The translations under genes and the position numbers were made by a program. DNA of 64,000 nucleotides from Pseudoblastomonas marina. Its GTDB lineage: Bacteria > Pseudomonadota > Alphaproteobacteria > Sphingomonadales > Sphingomonadaceae. The DNA lies in the NCBI RefSeq assembly GCF_014641655.1, contig NZ_BMID01000001.1, forward strand, positions 2,508,427 to 2,572,426. The letters are read 5' to 3'. This document shows, in pieces, positions 60,186-63,702 of this stretch. The notes under the pieces were generated by a model that was not told the DNA's origin, did not search any database, and worked only from the letters and a program-made list of their open reading frames with translations. Each line of letters starts with the position of its first letter. Position 1 is the first letter of the stretch.

Positions 60186-60590
60186 TCAGCGTCCCATCTT
60201 CACGGTGTCGAGGATGAGCGATTTCGCCGTCTGCAGCACCTGGACGTTGTTCTGGTACTGGCGGGCGGTCTCGATCATGTCGATCAGCTCGGCCGCCTCG
60301 TCGACGCCCGCATCCCACACATTGCCGTCTGCGTCGGCGAGCGGGTTGTTCGGATCGTGGCGCATGCGCGGTTCGATGTTCGATTTGACGACCTGCTCGA
60401 CATCGACGGTGGCGATACCGTCGCCGCCCTCGACCGAGCGGAAGACCGGCTTGAGCGCGCGATAGGCTTCCTCGGCGCTGCTGTAGGTCGTGCGCGCATT
60501 GGCGAGGTTCGACGCGGTGGTGTTCATCCGGGTCAGCTGCGCGGACATCGCGCGCCCCGAAATGTCGAAGATGTTCAGGTTACCGGGCAT
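60186..60590 (-). CDS. flgC: proximal rod protein FlgC
   Basis: The 134-residue rod protein shows NIFDISGRAMSAQLTRMNTTASNLANARTTYSSAEEAYRALKPVF and DVAAELIDMIETARQYQNNVQVLQTAKSL-like C-terminus. It lies 3 bases after flgB. Confidence 0.95.
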   Translation of the reverse strand: MPGNLNIFDISGRAMSAQLTRMNTTASNLANARTTYSSAEEAYRALKPVFRSVEGGDGIATVDVEQVVKSNIEPRMRHDPNNPLADADGNVWDAGVDEAAELIDMIETARQYQNNVQVLQTAKSLILDTVKMGR

Positions 60591-60593
60591 GGA

Positions 60594-60941
60594 TCATTCC
60601 CCTTTCAAGGCGCGGGTCAGCGTCGCCACGCGGCCTTCGAGGAAGGACAGCGTGGTCGAATAGCCCACCGCGTTTTCGGCGAAGAGCGTCTGTTCGGTGG
60701 AAAGCTCGACTGTGTTGCCATCGAGCGAGGGATTGAGCGGGATGCGATAGCCGGCATTGCCCTTGGCCGCGCGGTCGGCATCGCTGCCGCCGCGCACTTC
60801 CTGCATGGCGCGCTCGAAATCGAGGTCCTTCGCCTTGTAGCCGGGCGTCGCGCTGTTCGCGATGTTGGAGGCGAGCATGGAGAGGCGCTGCGAGCGAAGC
60901 CGCAATGCATCCCCGTGAATGCCGAAAATCTTGTCTGCCAT
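60594..60941 (-). CDS. flgB: proximal rod protein FlgB
   Basis: The 115-residue protein shows FGIHGDALRLRSQRLSMLASNIANSATPGYKAKDLDFERAMQ, the FlgB rod motif. The ATG at 60941 is preferred over the GTG one codon upstream. It is the first gene of the flgB-C-D-E-F-G-H-I-J-K-L operon and sits about 65 bases downstream of a sigma-54 promoter start. Confidence 0.94.
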   Translation of the reverse strand: MADKIFGIHGDALRLRSQRLSMLASNIANSATPGYKAKDLDFERAMQEVRGGSDADRAAKGNAGYRIPLNPSLDGNTVELSTEQTLFAENAVGYSTTLSFLEGRVATLTRALKGE

Positions 60942-61016
60942 CACTCGAATTCCTGCTTAAGTCTGCTCGCCTTTTGCCGTGAAGGGCGTTGGACGAATGG
61001 ATTGCCCCGGGGATTA

Positions 61017-61033
61017 AGCAAACCCCGTGCCAA
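61017..61033 (-). promoter_or_regulatory. sigma-54 promoter of the flgB operon
   Basis: On the minus strand TTGGCACG-GGGT-TTGCT (61033-61017) matches the -24 GG / -12 GC consensus with exact 12-base spacing. Its start would fall near 61006, about 64 bases before flgB. Confidence 0.88.
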
Positions 61034-61093
61034 ATGGCTTCCTGCGCTCGAAACCAAGCGTTTCTGCGGGTTGCGACAAGCCTTCGCCCCGAG

Positions 61094-61127
61094 CGGCAAG
61101 ATCTTGCCGCCCGGCAAGCTTTTGCCG
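61094..61127. promoter_or_regulatory. tandem enhancer-like palindromes between flgB and the ExbB/MotA-like gene
   Basis: CGGCAAGATCTTGCCG (61094-61109) is a perfect 16-bp palindrome. CGGCAAGCTTTTGCCG (61112-61127) repeats it with a centre-to-centre distance of 18 bp. They lie about 90-120 bp upstream of the flgB sigma-54 promoter start. A half-site TTTTGCCG recurs at 60972-60979. Their form and position suggest a bacterial enhancer-binding protein such as FlbD; as I recall the Caulobacter ftr elements look similar. Confidence 0.7.
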
Positions 61128-61149: not shown

Positions 61150-61857
61150 GTGATCGAAGCACCGATGGACTGGACCCTGCTGATCGATCCCGCCGCGCTG
61201 GCAATCGTCGGGCTCGGCAGTCTCGCGATCGCGTGGATCCAGAACGGCTTCGGTGCGATCCGCGAGGCAATCGGCGGCCTTCGGCGCCTGCTCACCGTTT
61301 CGCGCGATGGCGAGCGCAGCCGGCTCGCCCGCCTGATCGTCGAGGATATCGTCGATCGCCGCGGCGTCGCTTGCGCCGACCGCGGGCCGCAGACCTGTCC
61401 CTTCACCCACGAAGCCAGCCGGCTGATGTCCGACGAAACCAGCTATGCCGGCTTCTCCCGCGCGATCAGCAATCTGCTCGACCGCCATATCGCGCAGCGC
61501 CAGCGCACGGTGCGCGTGTGGAACGACATCGCCGATGCGGCACCCGCGCTGGGCATGCTCGGCACCGTGGTCGGCCTGGTGCAAATGTTCGCGGTCATGC
61601 AGAGCTCGCAGGGGATCGGGCTCGCGATGGCGCTGTGCCTGCTCACAAGCCTCTACGGCCTCGTCCTCGCGCACCTGGTCGCGGGCCCGCTCGCGCGCAG
61701 GCTCGAACTGGTCTCCGCGATCGAGGCTGAATGGCAGGAACAGACCGCCAGCCGCATGCTGGCGCTCGCCCGGCGCGAATATCCGGACGGTACCGATCAC
61801 GGCCGCGTACTCGATCTGAAGAAAGGCGCGCTCGCGGGCGTCGCGCAGGCGTCGTGA
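61150..61857 (+). CDS. ExbB/TolQ/MotA-type proton channel protein in the flagellar locus
   Basis: The 235-residue protein has hydrophobic segments around residues 11-30 and 137-190, with APALGMLGTVVGLVQMFAVMQSSQGIGLAMALCLLTSLYGLVLAHLVAGPL matching the MotA/ExbB family core. A cytosolic stretch carries many arginines. The GTG at 61150 has an AGGAG 11 bases upstream; ATG 61165 is the alternative start. It overlaps the ExbD/MotB-like gene by GTGA, so both are made together. It is distinct from motA at 51809. Its role in motility is inferred from location. Confidence 0.8.
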   Translation: MIEAPMDWTLLIDPAALAIVGLGSLAIAWIQNGFGAIREAIGGLRRLLTVSRDGERSRLARLIVEDIVDRRGVACADRGPQTCPFTHEASRLMSDETSYAGFSRAISNLLDRHIAQRQRTVRVWNDIADAAPALGMLGTVVGLVQMFAVMQSSQGIGLAMALCLLTSLYGLVLAHLVAGPLARRLELVSAIEAEWQEQTASRMLALARREYPDGTDHGRVLDLKKGALAGVAQAS

Positions 61858-62320: not shown

Positions 62321-62336
62321 TGGCACGCGCCTTGCT
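62321..62336 (+). promoter_or_regulatory. sigma-54 promoter of flgA
   Basis: TGGCACG-CGCC-TTGCT (62321-62336) matches the consensus with 12-base GG to GC spacing. It begins 2 bases after the stop of the ExbD/MotB-like gene; transcription would start near 62348, about 34 bases before flgA. Confidence 0.88.
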
Positions 62337-63272: not shown

Positions 63273-63566
63273 GTGCAGGTTGCAAAGATCCAGCAAGCCC
63301 AGGAACGCCTGATCGCCGCACTGGATGCGTGCGATGCGCATGCCATCCTCGAAGCGTCGGGAGACCTTTCGGGCCTGATCGATGAGATCGAGGACATTTC
63401 CGCGCTCTATGCGGATGCCGAAACCCGCGAGGCGCTCGAGCATGTCGAACGCCTGTCGCACGCCGCCGCGCACCGGCTGCGCGTGTTGACCGACCAAACG
63501 CGCGAGCGGCTGCAGATGCTCGGCGTGGACGAGGGTCCGCTCCTCTACGGGCCGCGCGCCGCCTGA
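63273..63566 (+). CDS. flgN: FlgN-like flagellar export chaperone
   Basis: The 97-residue protein is a helical bundle (QQAQERLIAALDACDAHAILEASGDLSGLIDEIED...). Size, GTG start 2 bases after flgM, and helix pattern fit the FlgN/FlgK-FlgL chaperone, though sequence conservation in this family is weak. It likely delivers FlgK and FlgL to the export gate. Confidence 0.7.
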   Translation: MQVAKIQQAQERLIAALDACDAHAILEASGDLSGLIDEIEDISALYADAETREALEHVERLSHAAAHRLRVLTDQTRERLQMLGVDEGPLLYGPRAA

Positions 63567-63686: not shown

Positions 63687-63702
63687 TGGCACGGCTCTTG
63701 CT
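63687..63702 (+). promoter_or_regulatory. sigma-54 promoter of the transglycosylase gene
   Basis: TGGCACG-GCTC-TTGCT (63687-63702) matches the -24/-12 consensus with 12-base spacing between GG and GC. Transcription would begin near 63714, 18 bases before the GTG at 63732, with AAGGAG as the ribosome-binding site. Confidence 0.88.

Follow-up and report, generated by a model that had tools for sequence, protein, structure and literature searches.

We propose, with a probability of about 0.8 for the proposal taken whole, that two palindromes upstream of flgB in Pseudoblastomonas marina form a tandem enhancer bound by the sigma-54 activator A1, and that a second activator, A2, controls the gene for A1. 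The analysis started from a stretch of 64,000 nucleotides (the window, numbered from its first letter) and was extended to the rest of the genome, where positions carry the prefix C1, and to related genomes. The features of the window at the flgB promoter are as follows.

61094-61109, no strand: promoter-proximal putative enhancer palindrome CGGCAAGATCTTGCCG, a predicted A1-type operator kept in relatives
61112-61127, no strand: promoter-distal putative enhancer palindrome CGGCAAGCTTTTGCCG, a predicted A1-type operator
61017-61032, minus strand: flgB sigma-54 promoter TGGCACGGGGTTTGCT, with 0 mismatches to TGGCACGN4TTGCW
60594-60941, minus strand: flgB, which opens the flgBC... operon (TIGR01396 above cut-off)
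60186-60590, minus strand: flgC-like rod gene, second in the flgB operon (Flg_bb_rod and Flg_bbr_C)

Enhancers of sigma-54 promoters are palindromic, often paired, and located about 80-150 bp upstream of the -24/-12 promoter. A preliminary description of this DNA had reported two palindromes spaced 18 bp centre to centre, about 90-120 bp upstream of a near-perfect sigma-54 promoter on the minus strand, and had taken this as the position of an enhancer for a pair of bEBP dimers. The spacing was borne out, both palindromes being exact 16-letter copies of CGGCAAN4TTGCCG (hereafter the G-type site), and the promoter was found to be an exact match at 61032-61017 (given earlier as 61033-61017). Relative to a predicted flgB start near 61006 the palindrome centres lie at about -95 and -113, and the arrangement is that of a sigma-54 enhancer, with paired palindromes upstream of a -24/-12 promoter. 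The interpretation as an enhancer is strongly supported by further copies of the motif in the same genome, by the presence of rpoN and bEBP genes, and by the flgB promoters of relatives, and the palindromes are very probably docking sites of a sigma-54 activator.

Within the window, GGCAAN4TTGCC was matched 40 times with at most two mismatches (30 expected), and the only exact matches were the flgB pair. The exact G-type site was found four times in the 2.63-Mb genome; two of these copies are the flgB pair, and three of the four lie near flagellar sigma-54 sites; the preliminary description had called for a search of the motif near all sigma-54 sites. The fourth copy (C1:1208363) was set aside and is tentatively taken as a chance occurrence in the nuo region (genes judged by eye), where a sigma-54-like site with one mismatch is 366 bp off. 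With one mismatch the G-type site occurred at 42 places in the whole genome compared to 16 for a reversed control pattern, and with two mismatches the counts (386 versus 272 for the control) carried little information.

For the analysis of conservation two sets of flgB upstream regions were used: the best 80 of 295 relatives in a FlgB search (77 labelled as sphingomonad or Sphingomonadales, three only as Alphaproteobacteria, Proteobacteria or bacterium), and 56 genomes of the order, a set that overlaps with the first (G139 and L069 share sites). The 260 bp upstream of each flgB sigma-54 site were searched by enumerating 36,864 palindromic motifs (4,096 half-sites in combination with 9 spacers). 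The G-type site ranked first in both sets and was present with at most one mismatch at 73 of the 80 loci and in 55 of the 56 genomes, many rows in both sets being close kin; the seven loci without it were L097, L099, L103, L122, L124, L133, and L148. A single first-order resampling of the upstream regions returned 0 in both sets, and 20 resamplings returned on average 0.1 (80-locus set) and 0.25 (56-genome set) sequences with a G-type site. That the support for function is solely comparative could be held in favor of regarding the flgB palindromes as functionless chance occurrences; set against the resampled means, their presence at 73/80 and 55/56 promoters makes this next to impossible.

A second palindrome at most 26 bp away (at most two mismatches) was found at 69 of the 80 loci and in 29 of the 56 genomes, while none was found at the other 27 flgB promoters of the order set. 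The spacing in the 69 paired loci was 18 bp in two, 20 bp in four, 21 bp in 56, and 22 bp in seven. Outside the window the 18-bp spacing belongs to Sphingorhabdus soli and Novosphingopyxis baekryungensis, the closest by FlgB identity among the best 80 of 295. Relatives mostly use 21 bp, equal to two helical turns; at the 18 bp of the window, two dimers would face different sides of the helix.

In assemblies of uncultured Sphingomonadaceae, the second flgB copies (L133, L148, L103, L124) carried CGACAA..TTGTCG and CGCCAA..TTGGCG palindromes or close forms, and other flgB copies in those assemblies (L107, L140, L130, L090) carried the G form CGGCAA..TTGCCG. The differing palindromes suggest insulated codes for two flagellar systems per cell.

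The genome encodes one rpoN and has ten PF00158 places, six of them strong, among which two genes lie within the flagellar cluster.

C1:1459-2772: A1, sigma-54 activator gene (437 aa), opening the fli cluster, with fliE and fliF immediately after it
C1:17222-18250: A2, second sigma-54 activator gene (342 aa), after fliS

Both proteins scored above the cut-offs of PF00158 (Sigma54_activat, AAA+) and PF02954 (Fis-type HTH, HTH_8), i.e., they have the Sigma54_activat and Fis-type HTH domains that define bEBPs, and they form separate clades in phylogenetic trees. The sigma-54 activator genes on which the preliminary description depended are thus present together with rpoN. The same description had likened the palindromes to the ftr elements reportedly known for FlbD in Caulobacter and had pointed to FlbD or FleQ genes; here the search returned sigma-54 activators and neither the FlbD model nor the FleQ domain. 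For the FlbD model NF050807 the scores were 296 (A1) and 291.7 (A2) against a cut-off of 750, and a Response_reg domain was matched neither in A1 or A2 nor in the four A1 and five A2 orthologs scanned. FliX (PF10768) had no match in the genome at E ≤ 0.001 (the Caulobacter control was positive), and the FleQ N-terminal domain, presumably represented by the Pfam model of that name, was absent among the families found at E ≤ 0.001 for A1 or A2. The A1 system is not regarded as FlbD because the model score, the receiver domain and FliX all fail; the likely binder falls outside the FlbD family in its defined form.

The recognition-helix consensus of A1 proteins (80 percent of rows) is LGISERTLRYRLA, and an RTTLIEKM-like helix takes the matching position in A2 proteins; among the printed rows, the A1 fragment of G105 and A2 of G132 aligned badly there and were uninformative. 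Different conserved recognition helices would fit two different operators.

Among 196 genomes of the order, A1 orthologs were identified by hand count in 55 (E ≤ 1.5e-77; next match 4.9e-75) and strong FlgB matches (E ≤ 1.1e-25) in 63; in G120 a frame-broken A1 was found. Among these 63 FlgB genomes, the G-type palindrome (at most one mismatch) was present at flgB in 54 of 55 with A1 versus one of eight without (Fisher p 1e-7, not corrected for kinship, and A1, palindrome and flagellum share descent). The exceptions were G154, with A1 and only 2-mismatch sites at flgB, and G144, with the palindrome and no A1 match. An exact palindrome 58-88 bp before the sigma-54 site was found in 14 of the 196 genomes, all of which have A1. 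The binder of the flgB palindromes is therefore likely to be A1 as judged from this association. A regulator from another family, rather than a sigma-54 activator, is a very unlikely binder: the present candidate was assigned by comparison, and the distance between palindrome centre and sigma-54 site varies widely in the 56-genome set (40-203 bp, median 61), but it is narrow in the 80-locus set (range 60-106 bp with a median of 82, for loci having a site at two or fewer mismatches) and the palindrome co-occurs with the A1 gene.

Seven of the eight FlgB genomes without A1 (G035, G059, G080, G088, G097, G118, G166) carry A2 as determined by trees. The G-type site (at most one mismatch) was absent from the flgB promoters of all seven A2-only genomes, and six of them have at flgB an exact match to YGTCRRN4YYGACR (hereafter the T-type site). 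The T-type consensus was initially derived by eye from promoters of the A2-only genomes and loosened once 15 A1 promoters had been viewed; because it was fitted to its own members, this and all other T-type counts are in-sample. The exception is G088, whose flgB lacks an upstream T-type site; downstream of its flgB sigma-54 site a similar inverted repeat was seen by eye. In G118 the flgB region has two divergent sigma-54 sites (L332:1986 and 2134) that flank one T-type palindrome, which may act as an enhancer in both directions.

It could be argued that A2, or both activators alike, binds the flgB palindromes and that A1 acts elsewhere, given that A2 is encoded within the same flagellar cluster, has an HTH_8 domain, and that the G- and T-type operators have a common 16-bp frame with a 4-bp spacer. 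We consider this unlikely, as genomes without a detected A2 do carry the G-type flgB site, whereas it is missing (at most one mismatch) from 7/7 genomes with A2 only.

Similar sites at other flagellar genes would extend the regulon of A1 beyond flgB, and the further sigma-54 sites of the window were inspected as well.

C1:8166: exact G-type palindrome; a sigma-54 site with one mismatch follows 199 bp downstream, near the fliK start
62321-62336, plus strand: sigma-54 site with no mismatch, preceding a flgA-like gene (below curated cut-off)
63687-63702, plus strand: sigma-54 site with no mismatch, preceding an SLT-domain gene and flhA

In the fliK start region of the source genome, G-type palindromes are located 199-223 bp upstream of the sigma-54 site. 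Equivalent sites occur in G139 and G201 (Novosphingopyxis baekryungensis), with a FliK match just downstream, and in G200 (Parasphingorhabdus marina), where no FliK match was found beside them. The source genome and all three relatives checked (G139, G201, G200) also have a sigma-54 site within fliN, and G-type palindromes are located 154-202 bp upstream of it. Some of the fliN and fliK matches have one or two mismatches, and their coding position weakens the case for a regulon. Upstream of the site at 62321 neither a G- nor a T-type palindrome was found within 320 bp, and the same holds for the 320 bp upstream of the site at 63687, except for a 1-mismatch, intragenic T-type match at 63443.

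Other observations in the source genome include an exact sigma-54 site at C1:1065867 and one with one mismatch at C1:1068341, just upstream of a small secreted-protein-like gene; a receiver-AAA protein resembling PEP-CTERM response regulators at C1:1250485; and a 1-mismatch sigma-54 site at C1:1730163, facing away from a PspF-like activator gene, an arrangement seen in phage-shock operons (the three gene assignments were made by eye). Flagellin-like frames are located near both ends of the main contig (L060:7844-8821 at the C1 end, by eye, and L059:335-1162). The start of the record is suggested to cut the flagellar cluster of a circular chromosome.

On the plus strand, divergent from flgB, two further features were identified.

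60957-60983, plus strand: sigma-28 (FliA)-like promoter TTAAGTCT-N11-GCCGTGAA, divergent, inside the flgB leader
61150-61857, plus strand: MotA/TolQ/ExbB-family gene, probable stator gene, divergent from flgB

The promoter has 12 of the 16 letters of what we take to be the sigma-28 (FliA) consensus and is the sole match with at least 12 letters in the window; its direction is towards the MotA/TolQ-family gene. Genes for FliA and FlgM are present in the genome. At least 11 of the 16 letters were matched in 44 of the 80 flgB leaders on the reverse strand, compared to two on the forward strand and two in one shuffle. The match is weak in near relatives (10/16 in L069, 8/16 in L070 and L071), CGGCA occurs in 32/80 and AACGGC in 47/80 of the leaders, and the MotA/TolQ Pfam family is divergent from flgB also in four of four relatives scanned. 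The half-site TTTTGCCG, listed in the preliminary description as a third half-site of the enhancer, does exist at 60972-60979, inside the sigma-28-like promoter. Its reading as a third A1 half-site was set aside because the reverse strand of the leaders is far closer to sigma-28 than the forward strand or the shuffle, and it is better read as part of a putative late promoter, namely its FliA-type -10 box.

The two palindromes themselves lie 23-56 bp before the start codon of the motA-like gene and downstream of the divergent sigma-28-like promoter, and each has the potential for a 6-bp stem (judged by eye); they might belong to that gene, whether as its operator or as a hairpin in the leader of the FliA transcript. 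This is quite unlikely considering that the letters of the half-sites, and not pairing alone, are conserved upstream of flgB, that similar sites accompany the sigma-54 sites at fliK and within fliN, and that the palindrome is associated with A1.

The second part of the proposal, control of the A1 gene by A2, is based on the region upstream of the A1 gene.

C1:1395: A1 gene sigma-54 promoter, 1 mismatch
C1:1292-1307: T-type site CGTCAGAATATTGACG at the A1 gene, 103 bp upstream of the A1 sigma-54 site
C1:1368: weak G-type site with 2 mismatches, ending 11 bp before the A1 promoter, which could be autoregulatory (A1 autorepression)

A second activator gene (A1) under a sigma-54 promoter is the arrangement of a two-step flagellar bEBP cascade. 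For a survey of A1 promoters 62 A1 genes were used, comprising the 55 of the order set, G120, and six obtained via the 80-locus set. A sigma-54 promoter with at most one mismatch was present at the A1 gene in 15/15 genomes with A2 versus 0/47 without, and four of these 47 had a 2-mismatch sigma-54-like match near A1. A2 in G105, G120, G132, and G154 had been missed by E-value and was placed by trees after the promoters had been seen. Among the 47 A2-negative genomes the best A2-like match fell outside the A2 clade in 36/36 placed (19 + 17, the tree for the 17 having been inferred with a simpler model and with long-branch warnings), and 11 rest on E-value alone. The T-type site was exact at 13 of the 15 A1 promoters (one mismatch in G139, two in G201), and an unbiased enumeration at these promoters returned CGTCGG with a spacer of 4 as the top motif (8/15); in the flgB sets the exact T-type site was found at 1/80 loci and in 0/56 genomes. 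The presence of A2 changes only twice on the A1 tree, both times together with the A1 sigma-54 promoter. The association with A2 is therefore strong in count and small in independent events, and two changes are too few for a kinship-corrected test.

In the proposed mechanism, the A1 gene would itself be sigma-54 dependent with CGTCAGAATATTGACG as the enhancer for A2. Two A1 dimers would bind the palindromes at flgB and open the sigma-54 promoter about 100 bp away, the pair serving as tandem enhancer of the flgBC... operon. The order would be A2, A1, middle genes, and late genes under FliA, among them the divergent motA-like operon. The sites, where they lie, how far they are conserved, and their association with the activator genes are seen in the sequences; binding, activation, the direction of the relay, and any autorepression at C1:1368 are what we infer.

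Several known systems resemble this scheme in part, as far as excerpts of the cited papers describe them. The sigma-54 activator FlbD of Caulobacter acts together with FliX on middle flagellar genes at short promoter-near elements (excerpts of PMC3930126 and PMC3096577), which is the likeness to the A1 system; A1 differs in its FlbD score (296 versus 750), in that no receiver domain was found, and in that no FliX was found. In addition the source genome has FliA and FlgM, whereas Caulobacter is described as not using FliA (excerpts of PMC3930126). In Vibrio (FlrA to FlrC) and Pseudomonas (FleQ to FleR) the gene of one activator depends on another sigma-54 activator, the second drives middle genes, and FliA late genes (excerpts of PMC3930126). 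The proposed relay is alike in that one sigma-54 activator would be needed for the gene of the second and FliA would act late. There, however, a response regulator paired with a sensor kinase serves as the second activator according to the same excerpts, while neither A1 nor A2 gave a receiver-domain match. Cereibacter (Rhodobacter) sphaeroides likewise is an alphaproteobacterium with two flagellar activators, of which the second (FleT) depends on the first (FleQ), but FleT is described as lacking a DNA-binding domain and working in a complex with FleQ (excerpts of PMC11999139), unlike A1 and A2, each of which has HTH_8 and probably its own, differing operator. For Sphingomonas sp. WG, FlbD, FliX, and FlbT were reported, with no fliA in two clusters (excerpts of PMC8921679). 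It shares flagellar control by a sigma-54 activator (there named FlbD) and differs from the source genome, which has fliA and flgM and no FliX match; neither "enhancer" nor "binding site" occurs in the main text of that paper. The A1/A2 system appears to work in the manner of known two-step cascades but not to be FlbD. Among the matches listed in a search of mainly open-access literature, none described an operator or enhancer for flagellar genes of sphingomonads.

More tentatively, and with odds that we place slightly short of even, these results may reflect a relay of the Sphingomonadaceae at large, in which two receiver-less activators would use a common 16-bp operator frame, with the third base of the half-site (CGG versus CGT/TGT) mainly discriminating between them and the A2 code being less strict at the positions that follow. 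Lineages would have been rewired by loss of a tier together with the matching promoter change, and extra flagellar sets would use other codes (CGACAA, CGCCAA) at the same position, insulating two systems per cell. The map presented here assigns probable sites to two activators and places the activators in order, and is directly testable. Near-identical paired operators assigned to different proteins would provide a natural test case for the evolution of activator specificity.
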